Part shown: one piece after another, positions 25,951-47,344 of the stretch
How positions within the stretch are numbered: the stretch's first letter is position 1
How the letters are laid out: each line of letters begins with the position of its first letter
DNA from: Brevibacterium sediminis
Lineage (GTDB): Bacteria; Actinomycetota; Actinomycetes; Actinomycetales; Brevibacteriaceae
Direction: 5' to 3'
NCBI RefSeq assembly: GCF_013623905.1
Contig: NZ_JABKDD010000016.1
Coordinates: forward strand, 1 to 64,000
Length of the DNA: 64,000 nt
Position numbers and translations under genes: made by a program
The notes under the pieces: model-generated
The model's database searches: none
Told to the model about the DNA's origin: nothing
What the model saw: only the letters and a program-made list of their open reading frames with translations

Positions 25951-27129
25951 ATGAGCGGCCCCACCCGCAGACCGGCGATCCCGGTCATCCTGCTCACCGG
26001 CTACCTCGGTGCCGGAAAGACGAGCCTGCTCAACCACCTCCTGCGCCACCCTGACGCCCGCATCGGCGTCATCGTCAACGACTTCGGCGACCTCAACATC
26101 GACGCCGGACTCGTCGTCGGCCAGGTCGACGAACCGCTGTCGATCTCGGGCGGATGCGTGTGCTGCCTGACCGATGACTCCGAACTCGAAGACGCGCTCG
26201 TGGCGATGACGAACCCCAAGCTGCGCCTCGACGCAATCATCGTCGAGGCCAGCGGATTCGCCGAGCCCCTGACCCTGGCCCGCATGATCACGCGCATGGG
26301 CCACCACCGATTCCACCTCGGCGGGGTCATCGACGTCGTCGACGCCACCATGTACTTCGACACCATCGATACCTCGAGCCTGCCGCCCCTGCGCTTCGCC
26401 GCGACGACATTGGTGCTGGTCAACAAGCTCGACCAGGTGCCCGCCGTCGACCGTGAGAACACGGTCGAGGCCGTGCGCGCCCGCGTCCACGAACGCAATC
26501 CGCGCGTCATCGTCATCGGCACCCACCACGCTCGCCTCGACCCCACTCTCATCTTCGACCCGGGCGAAGGAGAGCAGGATCCTCGCCGAAGCGGCTCCGA
26601 CGACGGTGACAACCCGATTCAACCTGAGCTGCCGATCCGGGAACTGCTGCGTCAGGCCTACGCCGAGGCGGCAGCCGACGAGCTCGGTGACGACGAGGCC
26701 GACGCGGAATCCCTGCCGCATCGACATGCCCAGTCGGTGACCGTCACCGGCAGCGGTCCTGTCGATCCGGATGCGGTGATGGATTTCGTCGAAGACCTCC
26801 CGCCCGGGGTGTACCGCGTGAAGGGCACCGTGCTCGCGGCTGTGGGATCTCGCAGGCGCAGCTTCGATGTGCAGGCTGTGGGTCCGAACGTCTACGTCGC
26901 CGAGGCGCCCCGACCTGTCCCGAAGACGCCGTCCTTAAGCGCGGGGAATGGTGATCGGCCGGATGCCGACAGCGTCCTCGTCGCCATCGGAGAGGACTTC
27001 GACACCGAGGCGGCCGAAGCCACTCTGACCGCCGCCCTCAACAGCGACGCCGCCGGAGGCCTGGATGTCGCGGCATCAGGCAGTGACCGTTCCGAACGCC
27101 TCCTCCACCACGTCCGCCTCCACACCTAA
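25951..27129 (+). CDS. COG0523 (CobW/ZigA-type) GTPase, putative zinc metallochaperone
   Basis: A 392-residue G3E-family GTPase. GYLGAGKT at residues 17-24 is the P-loop, CVCC at 69-72 the metal-binding CxCC motif, and VNKLDQ near 155 the guanine-specificity motif. The C-terminal CobW_C domain is interrupted by acidic and His-containing stretches (SLPHRHAQS), usual in metal chaperones. GAGGAGG lies upstream of the ATG. Such proteins deliver zinc to target enzymes during starvation; the adjacent zur gene supports this. The hairpin at 27129-27192 begins at its stop codon. Confidence 0.88.
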   Translation: MSGPTRRPAIPVILLTGYLGAGKTSLLNHLLRHPDARIGVIVNDFGDLNIDAGLVVGQVDEPLSISGGCVCCLTDDSELEDALVAMTNPKLRLDAIIVEASGFAEPLTLARMITRMGHHRFHLGGVIDVVDATMYFDTIDTSSLPPLRFAATTLVLVNKLDQVPAVDRENTVEAVRARVHERNPRVIVIGTHHARLDPTLIFDPGEGEQDPRRSGSDDGDNPIQPELPIRELLRQAYAEAAADELGDDEADAESLPHRHAQSVTVTGSGPVDPDAVMDFVEDLPPGVYRVKGTVLAAVGSRRRSFDVQAVGPNVYVAEAPRPVPKTPSLSAGNGDRPDADSVLVAIGEDFDTEAAEATLTAALNSDAAGGLDVAASGSDRSERLLHHVRLHT

Positions 27130-27192
27130 TTGCTACCTGACGGCGGCCCAGCAACCTCGCGCCAGGTTGCTGAGCCGCCGTCAGGTAGCAAT
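27129..27192. repeat. 60-nt palindrome, copy A, upstream of the RND gene
   Basis: Long inverted repeat with arms of 28-29 nt around CGCGCC-type centre. Apart from two or three bases it is the same sequence as 31139-31198. It begins at the COG0523 stop codon, so it may act as that gene's terminator. The rest of 27193-27452 holds no gene I can see; it should contain the RND promoter. Confidence 0.85.
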
Positions 27193-31138: not shown

Positions 31139-31198
31139 TGCTACCTGACGGCGGCCCAGCAACCTTGCGCAAGGTTGCTGGGCCGCCGTCAGGTAGCA
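31139..31198. repeat. 60-nt palindrome, copy B, downstream of the RND gene
   Basis: Perfect palindrome: 28-nt arms around GCGC. It lies 8 bp after the RND stop and 12 bp before the stop of the convergent GntR gene, so it can terminate both. The sequence is nearly identical to the copy at 27129-27192. Confidence 0.85.
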
Positions 31199-41007: not shown

Positions 41008-41022
41008 TTATCATTATGATAA
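41008..41022. promoter_or_regulatory. Perfect palindrome, probable operator of the ArsR-type regulator
   Basis: TTATCA-TTA-TGATAA lies 15 bp before the regulator start and 41 bp before the divergent PH-like gene. It is well placed to repress both. Confidence 0.65.
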
Positions 41023-41063
41023 TGTTCTCGTTACGATTCTATTCTAGCGATCAGGAGAGAACG

Positions 41064-41423
41064 ATGACGAACATCACGTACGACCAAACGGGAGTACACG
41101 TGCAGTTTCCCGGCTGGGAGGCGACGATGACGGGCTTGCCGAAGCTGTCAATTCCGAGGGCGGCGATCCGTGGTGTAACGAGCGAGCCGGGATGGACTTC
41201 CGAGATCCTCGGGATGAAATCCGGTCTCGTCATCTCTGGCTACCGCAAGCTGGGCACGTTCAGACACCCTTCGGGAGTGCGGCGCCTAGTCTCGATGAAG
41301 CGCGGTCACCCGCTGCTGCGGATCGCCGTCGACCGGGCCGCCGTCGGGTTCGACGAGGTCCTCCTGAGCACCGATGCTGCAGAGTCGATCGCGGCAGACC
41401 TCCGATCGGACGTGCACTCTTGA
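41064..41423 (+). CDS. Hypothetical PH-domain-like protein
   Basis: A 119-residue protein without membrane segments. The order of strands around HVQFPGWEATMTGLPKLSIPRAAIRGV and FRHPSGVRRLVSMKRGHPLLRIAVD recalls bacterial PH-like proteins seen next to ABC exporters. AGGAGAG precedes the ATG. The stop codon overlaps the TTG start of the ABC ATPase gene (TTGA), so the genes are translationally coupled. Confidence 0.65.
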   Translation: MTNITYDQTGVHVQFPGWEATMTGLPKLSIPRAAIRGVTSEPGWTSEILGMKSGLVISGYRKLGTFRHPSGVRRLVSMKRGHPLLRIAVDRAAVGFDEVLLSTDAAESIAADLRSDVHS

Positions 41424-42138
41424 ACGCTGCGATCGAGGTAGAGGCGCTCTCAAAACGGTTCGGGGCAGTCGTTGCGCTCGAAGATGTCACCTTGAAGGTC
41501 GAGAACGGGCGCGTCGTCGGGTTCCTCGGGCCCAATGGGGCAGGGAAATCGACGCTCATGCGCGCACTACTCGGCCTAGTTCGCTCCGACAGCGGTGAGG
41601 CTCACATTGCTGGCCTTCCGTATGCCCACCTGCCTGCGCCCGCAAAGACCGTGGGCGCGGTCCTGGACATTGCCTCAGCGCATCCACGCATGACGGCACG
41701 CGCTCACCTTCACACGTACGTGGCACTCGGAGGAATGGACCGGTCGCGGGTCGACACCGTGTTATCCCTCGTGGGGGCGCAGTCGTACGCCGATCGTCGG
41801 ATCGGCACCTTCTCCACCGGGATGCGCCAGCGCCTCGCGCTGGCCACCGCGATGCTCGGCGACCCGGACATCCTCGTGCTCGATGAGCCGTCGAACGGTC
41901 TCGACCCAAGCGGAAGCGCCTGGCTTCGCACATTCCTGCGCGAGTTCGCCGATGCTGACGGCGCGCCGTACTGCTCTCCAGCCATGTGCTCAACGAGGTT
42001 GAGCACACGATCGACGACGTCATCCTCATCGACCGAGGCCGCACCGTCTGGGCTGGCGCACTCGAACGACTCGTAGCGCAAGATGCTCCCCTCGAAGAAG
42101 CCTTCCTGCGCCTCACGCAGAAAGGACTCCTCCTATGA
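41420..42138 (+). pseudogene. ABC-2 type exporter ATPase with a frameshift
   Basis: From the TTG at 41420 the frame encodes GPNGAGKST (Walker A) at residues 37-45, FSTGMRQRL (signature) near 135 and ILVLDEPSNGLD (Walker B) near 155. After DGAP the frame becomes senseless, while the next frame continues the family sequence with LLSSHVLNEVEHTIDDVILIDRG to a TGA at 42138. One base is missing around 41959-41967. The stop overlaps the permease ATG (ATGA). Either the gene is broken or the read has an error; programmed slippage is less likely. Confidence 0.85.
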
Positions 42139-42929
42139 ATGCCGTCTATGGCGAAGTCGCGCGACTGAGCGGCACCGGAGTAGCACTGCGGTCGACACTG
42201 GTTGCGCTCGCGTGTGGTGGCGGATTGCCGCTTCTCCTTGCGCTCACCGGACCGCAGAACGCCCAGCCTCCCATGCCGGACATCGACACCCCCGAAGGCG
42301 TTGGATTCGTGCTCGGCATCGGAACCGTGCTTCTGTTCGTCCCCGCGCTGATCGGGACCATCGCGATCACAAACGAGTATCGACACCGCACGATCGGCAC
42401 GACGTTCCTCGTCGTTCCTCGTCGGGGTCGAGTACTCACAGCCAAGCTCGCCGTGTACACAGCGCTGGGCATTGTCTACGGAATGGTCGCATCCCTGTCG
42501 GCCTTCCTCGCCCTGATCGTCGCAACATGGATGCGCGGTGTACCGCTGGGCGTCAATGTGGTGAATCTGGTACCGGCACTCATACAGCTCAGCCTCGCCG
42601 CTGCCGCCTACATGCTGCTTGGAGTAGGGATCGGCGCGTTGGCGCGTTCACCCTTCGTCGCGATCGGCGTCGTGCTCGGCTACTTCCTGTTCGTCGAGTA
42701 CGTCCTGATGATGGTTCCCGGCGTCAATGCGATCTACCCGTTCCTGCCGGGCGGCGCGACGGCATCGCTGACGAGTTTCGACTTCCTCACCGGCGCGATC
42801 GCGAGCCAGACAGCGCTGACGCCTGCGACGATGGTCTCACCTGTGCTCGGCGCTGCGATCCTCGTGGCATACGCGGTCATCGCGGCGATTCTCGCCATCT
42901 TCGTTCCCCTTCGGCGAGACCTGAGGTGA
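42135..42929 (+). CDS. ABC-2 type transporter permease
   Basis: A 264-residue membrane protein with six hydrophobic segments, including TIAITNEYRHRTIGTTFLVVPRRGRVLTAKL, the conserved loop of ABC-2 exporter permeases (EYRxxTIxTTL type). It overlaps the ATPase gene by 4 bp, so both are translated together. The pair probably exports a peptide or drug under the upstream ArsR-type regulator. Function now depends on whether the frameshift in the ATPase gene is real. Confidence 0.85.
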   Translation: MNAVYGEVARLSGTGVALRSTLVALACGGGLPLLLALTGPQNAQPPMPDIDTPEGVGFVLGIGTVLLFVPALIGTIAITNEYRHRTIGTTFLVVPRRGRVLTAKLAVYTALGIVYGMVASLSAFLALIVATWMRGVPLGVNVVNLVPALIQLSLAAAAYMLLGVGIGALARSPFVAIGVVLGYFLFVEYVLMMVPGVNAIYPFLPGGATASLTSFDFLTGAIASQTALTPATMVSPVLGAAILVAYAVIAAILAIFVPLRRDLR

Positions 42930-42960
42930 ACGGATCCAGGGTCTCGCCGAACGGGAGCCT

Positions 42961-43368
42961 CTATGGCTGCACATACGCGCTCGCGTAGTCCTCACTGGGA
43001 GCCACGGGCTGGATGATGTCGAGCAGCACACCATCGGGGGCAGCAATGATGAAGTGCCGCTGACCGAAGTCCTCGTCGCGAAGCGGTAACACCACGTTCA
43101 CCTCTGTTCTGCCGGCCAGCTGCTTGTGGACGGCATCGACGTCGCTGACTTCGAGGTTGACGATCACTCCTCGGGGAAGTTCACGGTATCCGGCCGGCAC
43201 CGTGGAGTGATCGTGAGCCAAGATCGCCAGCTCGAACTCGCCTAAGCGCAAGCTGACATACCAGTCGGATTCAAAGGTCGTCTCAAAACCGATGAAGTCG
43301 CGGTAGAAGGACGCCGCGGCGTCGACATCGCGAGACATGAGCACGGGATAGAGGCTGGTGACGGACAT
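42961..43368 (-). CDS. VOC-family protein (glyoxalase / bleomycin-resistance type)
   Basis: A 135-residue single-domain VOC protein. SLYPVLMSRDVDAAASFYRDFIGFE opens the first half, and FGQRHFIIAAPDGVLLDIIQP closes the second. Small members bind or inactivate toxic compounds, including bleomycin-type drugs and fosfomycin, but key metal ligands are not clear enough to say which. AAGGAG precedes the ATG. It is divergent from a TetR gene with symmetric motifs between, so it is probably induced by a ligand of that regulator. Confidence 0.85.
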   Translation of the reverse strand: MSVTSLYPVLMSRDVDAAASFYRDFIGFETTFESDWYVSLRLGEFELAILAHDHSTVPAGYRELPRGVIVNLEVSDVDAVHKQLAGRTEVNVVLPLRDEDFGQRHFIIAAPDGVLLDIIQPVAPSEDYASAYVQP

Positions 43369-43376
43369 TGCACTCC

Positions 43377-43430
43377 TTTACGTACGATATGCATGTAACG
43401 AAGCCAGCATACATACACACTGTACGTAAA
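43377..43430. promoter_or_regulatory. Paired TetR operator half-sites
   Basis: TTTACGTA at 43377-43384 and TACGTAAA at 43423-43430 are exact inverted repeats 38 bp apart. Each is next to a further imperfect mate (ATGTAA at 43394, ATACAT at 43409), so two operators, one per divergent gene, are likely. Confidence 0.55.
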
Positions 43431-43441
43431 GGAAGAGGACC

Positions 43442-44020
43442 ATGCCCCGCGCCTCCGCAGCCGACGCCGCCCAGACAGCCCAACGCATCCTCGATTCCGC
43501 GAAGGAACTCTTATCAGCGCGAGGCTTCAGCGAAGTCTCCGTCGATGATGTCGCCCGGGACGCCGGGGTCACACGGGGGGCGGTCTACCACCACTACCGG
43601 AACAAGGTCGCGCTGTTCGGCGAAGTCGCCGCCCGACTCCAAGCCGACGTCGCACGAGCTGTCGTCGCGGCGGCCGAGAATGCAGACCCGCAGCCTCACG
43701 AACAGCTCAAGGCCGGGTCGCACGCATTCCTCGATGCGATCACGAACGGAGCCGCCATGCGCATCCTGCTCATCGATTCACCAGCAGTGATCGGCTGGCA
43801 GGAATGGCGCCGACTTGACGCAGAGAATTCGGCGACGCATCTGCGAGAGGCACTACGTGAGGCAGGAGTTGCAGAAGACATCCTCGATGCGTCGACCGCG
43901 CAACTCTCCGGCGCGATGAACGAAGCAGCCCTGTGGACAGCCCAACAGAACGACATCGACCTGGCTCGTCGACAGTCTCATCGGGCCCTTGACAGACTGC
44001 TCACGGCCTACGTGTCATAG
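43442..44020 (+). CDS. TetR-family transcriptional regulator
   Basis: A 192-residue regulator. The HTH lies at residues 12-58 (ILDSAKELLSARGFSEVSVDDVARDAGVTRGAVYHHYRNK), close to the AcrR/TtgR type. AAGGAAGAGG lies upstream of the ATG. It is divergent from the small VOC gene, which it likely controls, and its stop overlaps the convergent MarR gene by 6 bp. Confidence 0.88.
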   Translation: MPRASAADAAQTAQRILDSAKELLSARGFSEVSVDDVARDAGVTRGAVYHHYRNKVALFGEVAARLQADVARAVVAAAENADPQPHEQLKAGSHAFLDAITNGAAMRILLIDSPAVIGWQEWRRLDAENSATHLREALREAGVAEDILDASTAQLSGAMNEAALWTAQQNDIDLARRQSHRALDRLLTAYVS

Positions 44021-44491
44021 AGCCGACTCTGGAGCATGGGAGAGTTTTCCAGAGATTCGCACGATGTCGAGGAGGTCGCGCGCGTCGAGCCGATCGGCGA
44101 AGCGGCGGCACACGGATTCCAAGTGCACGGCAGTCGCTCCACGAAGGGCGTCGAGACCGAGGGGGGCGAGTACGAGCAGACAGCCGCGACCGTCTGCCGG
44201 GTCGGGATCACGGCGAATCAGCTCTCGCGCTTCCATCCTGCCGGCGTGACGCGAGAGCCTGCTCCGCGACCACCCCATCTTCTGCGCTTGGGCATGCAGT
44301 GTGCTCGTCATCTCCGGCGCTTCGACCAGGGTGCTGAGCACCTCGTAGTCGGGCTCCGAGAGACCCGACGCTGCAAGGTCGTGCACCACACCGGCCTGCA
44401 CTGCGATCGTCATGCGACGAAACGCGCGCCAGGCGACTTCCTCATCCTCGTTCAACCACGGCGCCGCGGACCCCATCCTTTTCGTTGACAT
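44015..44491 (-). CDS. MarR-family regulator, divergent from the FMN reductase-GNAT gene
   Basis: A 158-residue MarR protein; the winged helix spans about residues 40-115 with MGWSRSRLSRHAGRMEARELIRRDPDPADGR. The start ATG lies in TTACATGTCAA, an inverted copy of the start region of the gene on the other side. No Shine-Dalgarno is present and a TAGAAT -10 box lies six bases before the ATG, so the transcript is probably leaderless. It should repress itself and the divergent oxidoreductase in response to an unknown ligand. Confidence 0.85.
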   Translation of the reverse strand: MSTKRMGSAAPWLNEDEEVAWRAFRRMTIAVQAGVVHDLAASGLSEPDYEVLSTLVEAPEMTSTLHAQAQKMGWSRSRLSRHAGRMEARELIRRDPDPADGRGCLLVLAPLGLDALRGATAVHLESVCRRFADRLDARDLLDIVRISGKLSHAPESAL

Positions 44492-44528
44492 GTAATCATT
44501 CTACGATCTATGCTCGTTTACATGTCAA
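44485..44528. promoter_or_regulatory. Interleaved bidirectional promoter with mirror-image start regions
   Basis: TTGACATGTAA (44485-44495) and TTACATGTCAA (44518-44528) are exact inverted repeats. On the plus strand TTGACA (44485-44490) and TATGCT (44509-44514) are 18 bp apart and TATGCT ends seven bases before the ATG at 44522. On the minus strand TTGACA (44528-44523) and TAGAAT (44503-44498) are 19 bp apart and TAGAAT ends six bases before the ATG at 44491. Each -35 box thus overlaps the start codon of the opposite gene, and both arms are probable MarR sites. Confidence 0.75.
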
Positions 44529-45580
44529 TAAAATCTCCTAGAGTCGTGATCCTCACGTGCAGCACCAGGCCAGGAGCTATGGGCCCGGCGGTTGCAGACT
44601 GGCTCCTGCGAACCCTCACCCCCGACGCCGACGCACTCGGCGTCGAGCTTCAGCATGTGTCGTTGCGCGATCTCGACCTCCCGTTCTTCGACGAGGAGGA
44701 ACATCCTGCTGTTGGCGCCTACCGAAACCCGCACACCAAAGCGTGGAGCAAGATCGTCGACGAGGCGGATGGCTTCATCGCGGTCACGCCGGAATACAAC
44801 TACGGCATGCCCGCGACGCTCAAGAACGCCCTCGACTACCTGAGCCAAGAATGGGCATGGAAGCCCATGGGGTTCGTGAGCTACGGCAACACCTCGGCAG
44901 GCACCCGATCCGTGCAGCACGCGAAACAGGTGATAACGACACTTCGTCTCGTCCCACTCGGCTCGACCGTCGCCCTGCGCCTGAAAGACACGATCGATTC
45001 GACCGGGGTGCGCTCGGGCGCACAGCTGACCGCGTCAGCGAACAGCTTGCTGGAAGAGCTGATCAGACTAGCTCACGCACTCAAGCCCATGCGGGAGGCT
45101 GCACGGCCAGGTAACGGAGTTGGGCCGCTGCCCGGTAGCTATACACGCCCGTTGACTCCCAACGACGCACCTCATGTACTGGTTCTGCAGCGATGCTGCT
45201 GGGTCGACGAGGCGTTGAGCAACGAAACACTAGACCTCACTCCGTTCACCGAGACCCTCGACGACGTGCAGGCCTGGCTCACCGACTGGGAGACGATCGG
45301 ACTCTGGCTCCACGGTCGTCTCATCGGAATGGTTCGCGCTCGACGCGCATCGCGAACAGGGTACATCGGCAGACTCGCCGTCGTTCCCGATCTCTACGGA
45401 CGGGGAATCGGGCGCTGGCTCCTCCGGCACGCGACGGATGCTCTCGCCAGCTCCTGCGACCGGATAGAGCTCAGCACCGGATCGCGGAGCACGAAGAACA
45501 TCCATCTGTACACGAGCGAAGGATTCGTCCAGCAAACCGAGAATCCCGAAGGAGCAGTCGATCTTGTCAAGCGTTTTTGA
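44522..45580 (+). CDS. NADPH-dependent FMN reductase fused to a GNAT acetyltransferase
   Basis: A 352-residue two-domain protein. Residues 1-185 form a flavodoxin-like FMN reductase: VVILTCSTRPGAMGPAVADW at the phosphate loop and TPEYNYGMPATLKNALDYL near 85-105. Residues 205-352 form a GNAT domain, with LAVVPDLYGRGIGRWLLRHA near 285 carrying the acetyl-CoA pyrophosphate loop (RGIGRW). The ATG at 44522 is preferred over 44510 because it mirrors the MarR start and fits a leaderless transcript. Likely role: reduction and acetylation of a toxic compound, controlled by MarR. Confidence 0.82.
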   Translation: MSIKSPRVVILTCSTRPGAMGPAVADWLLRTLTPDADALGVELQHVSLRDLDLPFFDEEEHPAVGAYRNPHTKAWSKIVDEADGFIAVTPEYNYGMPATLKNALDYLSQEWAWKPMGFVSYGNTSAGTRSVQHAKQVITTLRLVPLGSTVALRLKDTIDSTGVRSGAQLTASANSLLEELIRLAHALKPMREAARPGNGVGPLPGSYTRPLTPNDAPHVLVLQRCCWVDEALSNETLDLTPFTETLDDVQAWLTDWETIGLWLHGRLIGMVRARRASRTGYIGRLAVVPDLYGRGIGRWLLRHATDALASSCDRIELSTGSRSTKNIHLYTSEGFVQQTENPEGAVDLVKRF

Positions 45581-45623
45581 AGCGAGGTCCGGTGGACTGA
45601 CATTCGGCTCCCTGCGAATGCAC

Positions 45624-46333
45624 CTACGTGTCGTCGCCCGCTTGAGGCATCGGCAGGCTTTCGAGGAATGCTCTTGCTGCGGGGGTGGAGTTGAAGCTGC
45701 TCCACGCGAGGTACTCGATACGGGTGGGGCCAGCTGTCACCGGGATCGTTCGAAGGTCGTTGCTGCCGGCGGGGAGGACAGCTGGTGAGAGCAGGGCGAT
45801 CACGAGGCCCTGCCTGACCAGGTCGACGATGAGGTCGGCGCTCATCGCTTCGAAGGCGACCTCGCGATGGACACCAGCGGCCTGGAATGCGAGGTCGGAG
45901 GGAACTAGGCCGGGTGTTCCCTCGGGAAAGTCCACGAACACTTCATCGGTCAAGTCTTCCAACCGTAGTCTGCGACGCCGAGCCAGTGAGTGTTCAGCGG
46001 CGACGACGACGATGAGCCGCTCCCTGGCAAGAACGCGCGCGTTCACGCCTTTCGGGGGTGCGCTGTCGGGCAGCCCGAGCACTGCGACGTCCATACGGCC
46101 CTCGCTGATCGCGGTGATGAACTCATCGCTACCGCCGCCTCGGAGCTTGATCCGCACCGCAGGGTGGGCGCGATGGAAAAGCTCCAGTACAGTAGGTATA
46201 TCGATGGTGGTCACCGTCGGAATCACACCGATCGTGAGACTGCCTCGAATCTGCCCGTCCGCCTCCGCCGCCTCGGAGACCGCCCGTTCAGCCGCATCGA
46301 GACTCTCTCGTGCTCGTGCCAGGAATTGTTCTC
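45624..46333 (-). pseudogene. LysR-family regulator lacking its DNA-binding domain
   Basis: The frame holds the linker helix (FLARARESLDAAERAVSEAA) and the whole effector domain (LTIGVIPTVTTIDIPTVLELF to the stop at 45624), about 235 codons. Upstream of E-Q-F a TGA at about 46334 ends the frame, and the first 60 residues with the helix-turn-helix are absent. Sequence beyond 46334 bears no similarity to LysR, so the gene was cut by an insertion or deletion here. Confidence 0.85.
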
Positions 46334-46586: not shown

Positions 46587-46988
46587 TCAGCGGGTTGCCT
46601 GTTCGTCGACTCCAGGTTTGGTGCTGTCTGCGATTTTGAGCCAGACCACTCCAGCGATAATCACTGCCAGCCAGATAGCTGTGGTCCACGTAAGATGCTC
46701 GTCGAAGAACAGAGGACCGAAGACGGCTGCTCCGACGGCCCCGATGCCTGTCCAGACCGCGTACCCGATGCCGACGTCCACATGCTTGAGCGCGACACTG
46801 AGGAAGAACATCGTTAGAAGGAAGAACACCACCGCAAGAGAAGACCAAATCGGGTCGGTGAAACCTCCGCTGCCGTTGACCGAGAGAGCATAGCCGATCT
46901 CGAATCCGCCGGCGACCAGTAATGCGATCCATGCGCGGCCATTCTTTGCGGGCTCAACGGTGTCGGCGGCTGGAGCCGGGGCGTTCAT
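46587..46988 (-). CDS. SMR-family efflux protein, longer subunit
   Basis: A 133-residue protein with four hydrophobic segments of the small multidrug resistance family. AWIALLVAGGFEIGYALSVN places the essential glutamate in the first helix (E30), and VDVGIGYAVWTGIGAVGAAVFG is the conserved third-helix block. Charged extensions flank the core at both ends. AAGGAGG precedes the ATG. It follows a second SMR gene by 35 bp; such pairs (EbrAB, YkkCD) work as heterodimers that export cationic drugs or guanidinium. Confidence 0.9.
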   Translation of the reverse strand: MNAPAPAADTVEPAKNGRAWIALLVAGGFEIGYALSVNGSGGFTDPIWSSLAVVFFLLTMFFLSVALKHVDVGIGYAVWTGIGAVGAAVFGPLFFDEHLTWTTAIWLAVIIAGVVWLKIADSTKPGVDEQATR

Positions 46989-47023
46989 GAGGCCTCCTTA
47001 CTGAGCTGAGAAGAGTGGGGGGG

Positions 47024-47344
47024 TCAAGCGGTTCCCGAGAAGTTGAGGCCGATGACCCCGGCGATCACGACGGTGATCCCGAGTGCCTTCTTCCACGTGA
47101 TCTTCTGAGAGAGAATGAGGGCACCGATAATGACGATTCCAACCTCGGCGAGTGAGGTCCAGAGTGAGTAACCGATGCCGACATCGAAGGTGAGCAGGGC
47201 GAGGCTGAGGAAGTAGGTTCCGATCGCGCCGCTGATGAGGGTGACGATGGTCCACCGGAGGTCGGTGAAACCGTTTGCTTTGCCGGCAGAAATCCCGACG
47301 GCGATCTCAAAGACGACGGCGATAGCAAGGTAGAACCAGCTCAT
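47024..47344 (-). CDS. SMR-family efflux protein, shorter subunit
   Basis: A 106-residue four-helix SMR protein, the standard family length. MSWFYLAIAVVFEIAVGISAGKANGF carries the glutamate E14, and FDVGIGYSLWTSLAEVGIVIIG is the partner of the conserved block. Different loop charges from the downstream SMR protein fit opposite orientation in a heterodimer. AAGGG precedes the ATG. No guanidine riboswitch is evident upstream. Confidence 0.9.
   Translation of the reverse strand: MSWFYLAIAVVFEIAVGISAGKANGFTDLRWTIVTLISGAIGTYFLSLALLTFDVGIGYSLWTSLAEVGIVIIGALILSQKITWKKALGITVVIAGVIGLNFSGTA

Follow-up and report, generated by a model that had tools for sequence, protein, structure and literature searches.

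Mirrored operator-like palindromes around the start codons of a divergent, predicted leaderless marR-FMN reductase gene pair in Brevibacterium sediminis

In the 64-kb stretch of Brevibacterium sediminis DNA analysed here (64,000 nucleotides, hereafter the window), a gene for a MarR-family regulator and a gene for an FMN reductase-GNAT acetyltransferase fusion are divergently oriented, their start codons lying within a shared 44-base region (44485..44528). The question raised by this locus is how two genes can be started and regulated from so few bases, and which of the elements packed into them serve which gene.

Layout of the divergent region

The features discussed below are, in order along the window:

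44015..44491, minus strand: gene for a MarR-family regulator (158 aa), start ATG at 44491, predicted leaderless; ATG in 37 of 37 ortholog cores
44485..44495, plus strand: left arm, predicted MarR operator; contains the MarR ATG and the candidate reductase -35 box TTGACA (44485-44490)
44498..44503, minus strand: marR -10 box TAGAAT; TANNNT kept in 37 of 37 ortholog cores
44509..44514, plus strand: reductase -10 box TATGCT; TANNNT kept in 36 of 37 ortholog cores
44518..44528, minus strand: right arm, predicted MarR operator; contains the reductase ATG, and a TTGACA (44528-44523) that would be a weak marR -35 box
44522..45580, plus strand: gene for an FMN reductase-GNAT acetyltransferase fusion (352 aa), start ATG at 44522, predicted leaderless

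A preliminary description of this locus had proposed two interleaved, mirror-image promoters, and the coordinates on which it was built are accurate. The two 11-bp arms are exact, TTGACATGTAA at 44485-44495 having its reverse complement, TTACATGTCAA, at 44518-44528, and both ATGs lie within them (MarR at 44491 on the minus strand, reductase at 44522 on the plus strand). The reductase -10 box (44509-44514) is found 18 bp past its TTGACA, with the ATG 7 nt further on; the marR box (44503-44498, minus strand) is 19 bp past the other TTGACA, and its ATG follows after 6 nt. The predicted starts at 44491 and 44522 are separated by 31 bp, and the -10 boxes (44498-44503 and 44509-44514) do not overlap. 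Each arm is palindromic about CATG. The centres of the two palindromes are 32 bp apart, approximately three helical turns, so that both operators would lie on the same face of the DNA. Because the operator sequence TTGACATGTCAA includes both TTGACA and ATG, each copy has more than one job. The layout is that of a divergent regulator-target pair, the target gene being adjacent and divergent and the two palindromic arms spanning both start codons.

The product of the regulator gene matches the Pfam families MarR_2 (6.4e-9) and MarR (6.2e-8) above the cut-off, and that of the fusion gene matches FMN_red (4.9e-36) and Acetyltransf_1 (4.9e-12). Among solved structures, the top sequence matches are 3zmd and 3zpl for MarR and, for the reductase part, YLR011wp, YieF and azo/quinone/chromate reductases.

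Positions 41017-46326 of the window form a block of at least 5.3 kb which is 92.5% identical to Microbacterium sorbitolivorans, a member of another genus, and 99.2% identical to Brevibacterium sp. RIT 803 (loci L007 and L006). Both alignments end at 46326, which suggests that a cassette bounded at this position has moved horizontally. Two adjacent genes of the small-multidrug-resistance type, in tandem on the minus strand, occupy 46587-47344. Next door to the MarR pair is another divergent pair, a glyoxalase-fold gene (43368, minus strand) and a TetR gene (43442, plus strand), with an exact 12-bp inverted repeat, TCCTTTACGTAC/GTACGTAAAGGA, at 43374-43385 and 43422-43433. The arms of this repeat overlap the Shine-Dalgarno-like sequences of both genes (AAGGAG and AGGAAGAGG), making it a leadered counterpart of the MarR design. 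Elsewhere in the window two long inverted repeats (27129-27192 and 31139-31198), approximately 4 kb apart, have TGCTACCTGACGGCGGC in common.

Conservation of the promoters and start codons

Orthologs were collected by tblastn at 140 bits or more, which gave 41 loci with 37 distinct cores; a further 11 loci at 95-139 bits constitute the sister clade. Copies of the window or of L003 (L001, L006, L104) were dropped from the sets, as was L087, a partial MarR match of 124 bits in which the operator was not seen. The searches for related MarR genes covered overlapping sets of 60 genomes from the family, 396 from the phylum, 396 from the order and 394 from the class, together with sets of 150, 199, 120 and 47 genomes. 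An additional scan of named genome contigs contributed two loci, and a protein search, of which the best 120 of 860 relatives were used, served for names only. The closest named relative at the locus is Brevibacterium sp. RIT 803, with 99% MarR identity in one genome-contig scan that may omit the window's own record; a plasmid search returned one relative above 60% identity. The arm pair travels with the MarR gene across six family-level groups of Actinomycetota (f1, f2, f6, f8, f84, f105). Since the 41 orthologs are related and the tree described below is loose, the conservation counts are not independent events.

A TANNNT box stands exactly 6 nt ahead of the marR start in all 37 cores. The reductase gene is preceded by one in 36 of the 37, at a distance of 7 nt in 24 and 8 nt in 12; the sole ortholog without it, L004, has a reductase remnant of 56 aa and keeps its marR box. 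At none of the 41 loci do the 15 nt ahead of either start contain a Shine-Dalgarno-like motif (seven 4- and 5-mers of the AAGGAGG type). Both sides therefore carry the mark of a leaderless gene in Actinobacteria, that is, TANNNT about 6-8 nt from the start and no Shine-Dalgarno sequence.

Each TTGACA had originally been assigned to the opposite gene as its -35 box, a proposal that is well supported for one arm and weak for the other. In the left arm TTGACA is present in all 37 cores, and among the 36 with a reductase -10 box the spacer is 18 bp in 32 and 17 bp in 4. The would-be marR hexamer in the right arm reads TTGACA in 25 of the 37 cores, TTGTCA in 8, TTTCCA in 2, and TTAACA and TTCACA in 1 each, with a spacer of 19 bp (25 cores), 20 bp (10) or 18 bp (2). 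Where the core is one base longer, the reductase -10 box lies 8 nt from the ATG and its spacer is still 18 bp, while the marR spacer becomes 20 bp. Over 40 distinct extended cores the outer half TTGACATG is retained in 40 left arms and in 26 right arms, and the distance between arm centres is 32 bp in 28 of them, 33 bp in 10 and 31 bp in 2. The difference between the outer halves, together with length changes that spare the reductase spacer, fits an extra -35 duty for the left arm only. When -35/-10 spacing is compared in relatives, then, the reductase pairing remains intact; that of marR, with its changing hexamer and a spacer of 18-20 bp, is in part broken. The left-arm TTGACA is a credible reductase -35 box on this comparison, and its right-arm equivalent a doubtful one for marR. 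As both hexamer and spacer vary on that side, the marR promoter probably relies mainly on its -10 box, and the conservation of the right arm is probably better accounted for by its roles as operator and coding start.

On a quick MarR protein tree (unrooted, the first 12 residues excluded, 13 of 49 inner branches well supported) a single branch (SH-aLRT 99) separates the 41 mirror loci from the 11 of the sister clade. Parsimony gives the marR promoter no changes at positions -12, -11 and -7, which are the TA and final T of the -10 box; the inner columns of the box change 9 times at -10, 10 times at -9 and once at -8. Neighbouring columns have 8 changes at -5, 8-17 at -13, -15, -16, -17, -20 and -21, and 4, 4 and 2 at -14, -18 and -19, respectively. 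No change is seen either at -4 and -1, which belong to the operator, so that a low figure is not unique to the marR -10 box. The reductase -10 columns, aligned from the left arm, show 4 changes at T, 2 at A and 1 at the final T, with 4-17 in their neighbours; they are imperfect in part because four cores have a 17-bp spacer, which blurs the columns.

In the sister clade, where MarR identity is 45-52%, the in-frame MarR start is displaced to query residue 7 or 8, and in 10 of the 11 loci a TANNNT lies 6-7 nt ahead of the displaced start, which was picked from the in-frame ATG or GTG candidates at residue 5, 7 or 8 (L005 and L078 also possess a residue-5 start, without a box). The divergent side is preserved in 9 of the 11, the exceptions being L009 and L082: the right operator holds an ATG, a TANNNT precedes that ATG by 6-7 nt, and TTGACA or TTGACG lies another 16-18 bp upstream. 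A reductase match reaches to within 7 residues of the divergent start in only five of the 11 (L005, L078, L079, L080, L083), which means that the conserved divergent promoter there is not always tied to this enzyme. At L081, L084 and L085 the match is limited to a later or distant piece, and L009, L010 and L082 gave no passing reductase match.

Taken together, the -10 distances, the lack of Shine-Dalgarno-like motifs and the shift of box with start in the sister clade back the earlier claim that both mRNAs are leaderless, which on these comparisons is very probably correct. The ortholog comparison likewise upholds the placing of both start codons inside operator-like palindromes.

The strongest competing explanation is that the arms are MarR operators and nothing else, TTGACA being merely part of the operator sequence, both promoters belonging to an actinobacterial type that uses only a -10 box, and the -35 interleaving arising as a by-product. 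Promoters of this kind are known from Mycobacterium tuberculosis, in which, according to PMC3898074, a TANNNT -10 box precedes 73% of primary starts and no conserved -35 motif was found; the variable right-arm hexamer, 18-20 bp from the marR -10 box, would suit such a type as well. We nevertheless regard it as unlikely, since the left arm is the stricter of the two (TTGACA in 37/37 at a spacer of 17-18 bp, versus 25/37 on the right), length changes leave the reductase spacer intact at the expense of the marR one, and 9 of 11 sister loci retain TTGACA or TTGACG 16-18 bp ahead of the divergent -10 box.

Any palindrome centred on CATG, which is self-complementary, necessarily has an ATG on both strands. 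The ATGs might thus be there by chance, with one or both genes using a conventional leader and another start codon. For the reductase gene a candidate exists, as the list of open reading frames opens the gene at a further in-frame ATG at 44510, and in L036 the reductase frame meets a stop at codon 2, immediately behind the operator ATG, an observation that counts against the simple picture. This explanation is nonetheless very improbable. It is opposed by the complete lack of Shine-Dalgarno-like motifs on either side, by the -10 box that precedes the displaced MarR start in the sister clade, and by L064, whose intact reductase gene carries GTG at this position and so retains a start codon. An upstream in-frame ATG or GTG was found in 0 of 41 marR and 7 of 41 reductase orthologs; because the ATG at 44510 lies inside the -10 box and such an upstream codon is missing from the other 34 reductase orthologs, 44522 is the likely start. 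The marR/reductase start codons are ATG/ATG in 35 of the 37 cores and ATG/GTG in 2 (L064 and L004). Shorter reductase frames, which like the L036 stop fit the simple picture poorly, occur in L073 (226 aa) and L094 (291 aa).

Codon 2 is TCA at 70 of the 81 gene starts, from both genes, at which it could be read, and TCA accounts for 47 of 1060 serine codons (4.4%) elsewhere in those genes. From this excess it appears that selection acts on the DNA letters inside the open reading frames, and the operator seems to dictate the first codons of both genes.

Occurrence of the operator pair

When the 150 bp around the locus were shuffled 20,000 times by mononucleotide, an exact 11-bp inverted repeat with a gap of 5-60 bp arose in 14 of the shuffles, and the window has 16 places with such a repeat; with so many comparable cases, the inverted repeat by itself is weak evidence. 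The layout exceeds chance because TTGACATGTNA is confined to the arms, with exactly two occurrences in the 4.17-Mb genome, and because the layout is conserved in 41 orthologous loci. TTNACATGTNAA occurs once in the genome, at the right arm, and exact-match searches with TTGACATGTNA or TTNACATGTNAA revealed no wider regulon there. Although MarR relatives in other gene neighbourhoods (L108, L110, L115) also have MarR-type palindromes of this kind next to them, binding of the arms by some other cellular regulator is highly unlikely, given that these are the only TTGACATGTNA sites in the genome and that the pair accompanies this MarR gene in all six family-level groups. We infer, with some support from the palindromy and from co-conservation, that the adjacent MarR is the protein that binds the arms.

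A pattern scan of 226 genomes of the class, with free spacing of 20-36 bp, gave 8 matches, and a control with the reversed pattern gave 2 (G917, G963). Three of the eight (G000, G263, G962) are of this locus type and two (G854, G959) represent MarR loci of another type; the G241 match has other genes next to it, and G881 and G928 look like chance. The MarR-like genes found in G854 and G959 (L108, L110) each have a pair of perfect TTGACATGTCAA sites at a distance of 28-29 bp, and the gene diverging from them is of another kind. In a further MarR relative (L115, in G959) the facing gene, which by eye appears membrane-protein-like, has its ATG in the operator (MSTK start) and TAGGTT 6 nt upstream.

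Among distant MarR loci, copies (L105-L107, L109, L114) excluded, an operator-like pair with at most 2 mismatches per site and 24-40 bp between sites is present in 8 of 51; as L108, L110 and L115 were fetched by the pattern itself, the fair figure is 5 of 48, and the design is accordingly not general for MarR. In L011, L013 and L115 an open reading frame of more than 200 aa, divergent from MarR, begins inside the operator and has a TANNNT 6-7 nt before it. The mirror form may have been preceded by a half-form of the design, although the tree is unrooted and most distant MarR loci do not have the latter.

The proposed switch and related systems

Judged from the sequence and its conservation, the region is likely to be a divergent autoregulatory switch with one predicted MarR dimer operator in each arm, leaderless genes on both sides, and a left operator copy that is also the reductase -35 box. 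One dimer per arm is a reasonable expectation. Each operator copy would overlie both the transcription start and the start codon of the leaderless gene on its side, with the added -35 role in the reductase promoter for the left one. We surmise that without ligand MarR dimers on both arms would shut off both genes, and that MarR would be released by an inducer, for which a redox-active compound on which the reductase acts, quinone-like or other, is the probable candidate. With overlapping polymerase footprints, one promoter would fire at a time.

The category to which the locus would belong, the divergent autoregulated MarR pair, is a known one, and precedents with a single operator exist in the published descriptions of ForZ and of a RosR site spanning a start codon. 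For the duplicated mirror form, with both start codons in operators, no published case was found among titles and abstract openings, a search in which few subscription papers were covered; the two literature matches to the operator strings are unrelated by title.

RosR regulators are defined by peroxide-sensitive cysteines and by orthology to Cg1324, and the RosR consensus resembles GTTGA-N4-TCAAC. An FMN reductase gene is among the RosR targets; to our knowledge RosR forms no mirror pair with a reductase gene. RosR of Corynebacterium glutamicum is likewise a MarR regulator and has two binding sites for autoregulation, as described in the relevant passages of PMC7764795. One of the sites, as printed there, includes ATGACAAC, and altering that site changes residue 2 of RosR, from which we read the site as spanning the rosR start codon.

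The regulator ForZ of Streptomyces formicae is also a MarR protein encoded between divergent genes (forZ-forAA), with a site that is unique in the genome (PMC12421854). As here, the start site of one gene falls within the operator, which would also extend into the -35 region of the other gene, and forZ expression is reported to be leaderless, as is predicted here. ForZ has one operator, in contrast to the two mirror copies of the present locus, and the passages of PMC12421854 on the site do not state that start codons lie in it; the paper also proposes auto-activation by ForZ, unlike the repression proposed here.

CrtR of C. glutamicum is another divergent MarR autoregulator of Actinobacteria, treated in the relevant passages of two papers (PMC5401885, PMC6739363). 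One of them cites a leaderless crtR transcript, whereas the second maps the crtR start 41 nt ahead of the ATG. Unlike the predicted leaderless reductase gene, the target crtE has a leader, of 85 nt according to one paper and 114 nt according to the other. In Rhodobacter sphaeroides the repressor AcuR is similarly autoregulated, with an mRNA that starts exactly at the AUG and an inverted-repeat operator in the promoter region. It differs, as far as PMC3017554 describes it in the passages concerned, in being of the TetR family, in belonging to a single acuR-acuI-dddL operon and not a divergent pair, and in having its operator upstream of the start codon.

Symmetric bidirectional promoters, which include the repressor-target pair acrR/acrA, also drive divergent transcription by competing polymerases from one short element (PMC10268837, PMC12825309). 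In the passages describing them the starts are 7-25 bp apart, most often 18, and the -10 positions of the two strands overlap. A symmetric promoter of this (Warman) type was considered for the present locus and rejected, since the -10 boxes here are separate and too distant to overlap, and 31 bp lie between the predicted starts.

A broader reading is possible, and we offer it tentatively. The conserved part would be a 12-bp palindrome that serves as operator, as -35 box of the opposite gene and as the leaderless start and first codons of its own gene, present twice, mirrored and three helical turns apart, with repressor and target transcribed one at a time. This unit would have been kept down to approximately 60% protein identity and apparently moved between genera as a cassette, with a half-form in other MarR relatives, some of which have other targets. 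If the switch works as proposed, operator, promoter element, start codon and amino-acid codons would occupy the same bases and be kept in many Actinobacteria, an unusually dense overlap. The pair would then allow one to study, in a natural setting, how a leaderless gene is blocked by its repressor, whether through polymerase binding or at the start site itself, and what effect mutually exclusive promoters have on a regulator-target circuit. A simple pattern, in which open reading frames begin inside a pair of CATG-centred MarR sites spaced about 31-33 bp, could also be used to find similar pairs and re-annotate their starts.
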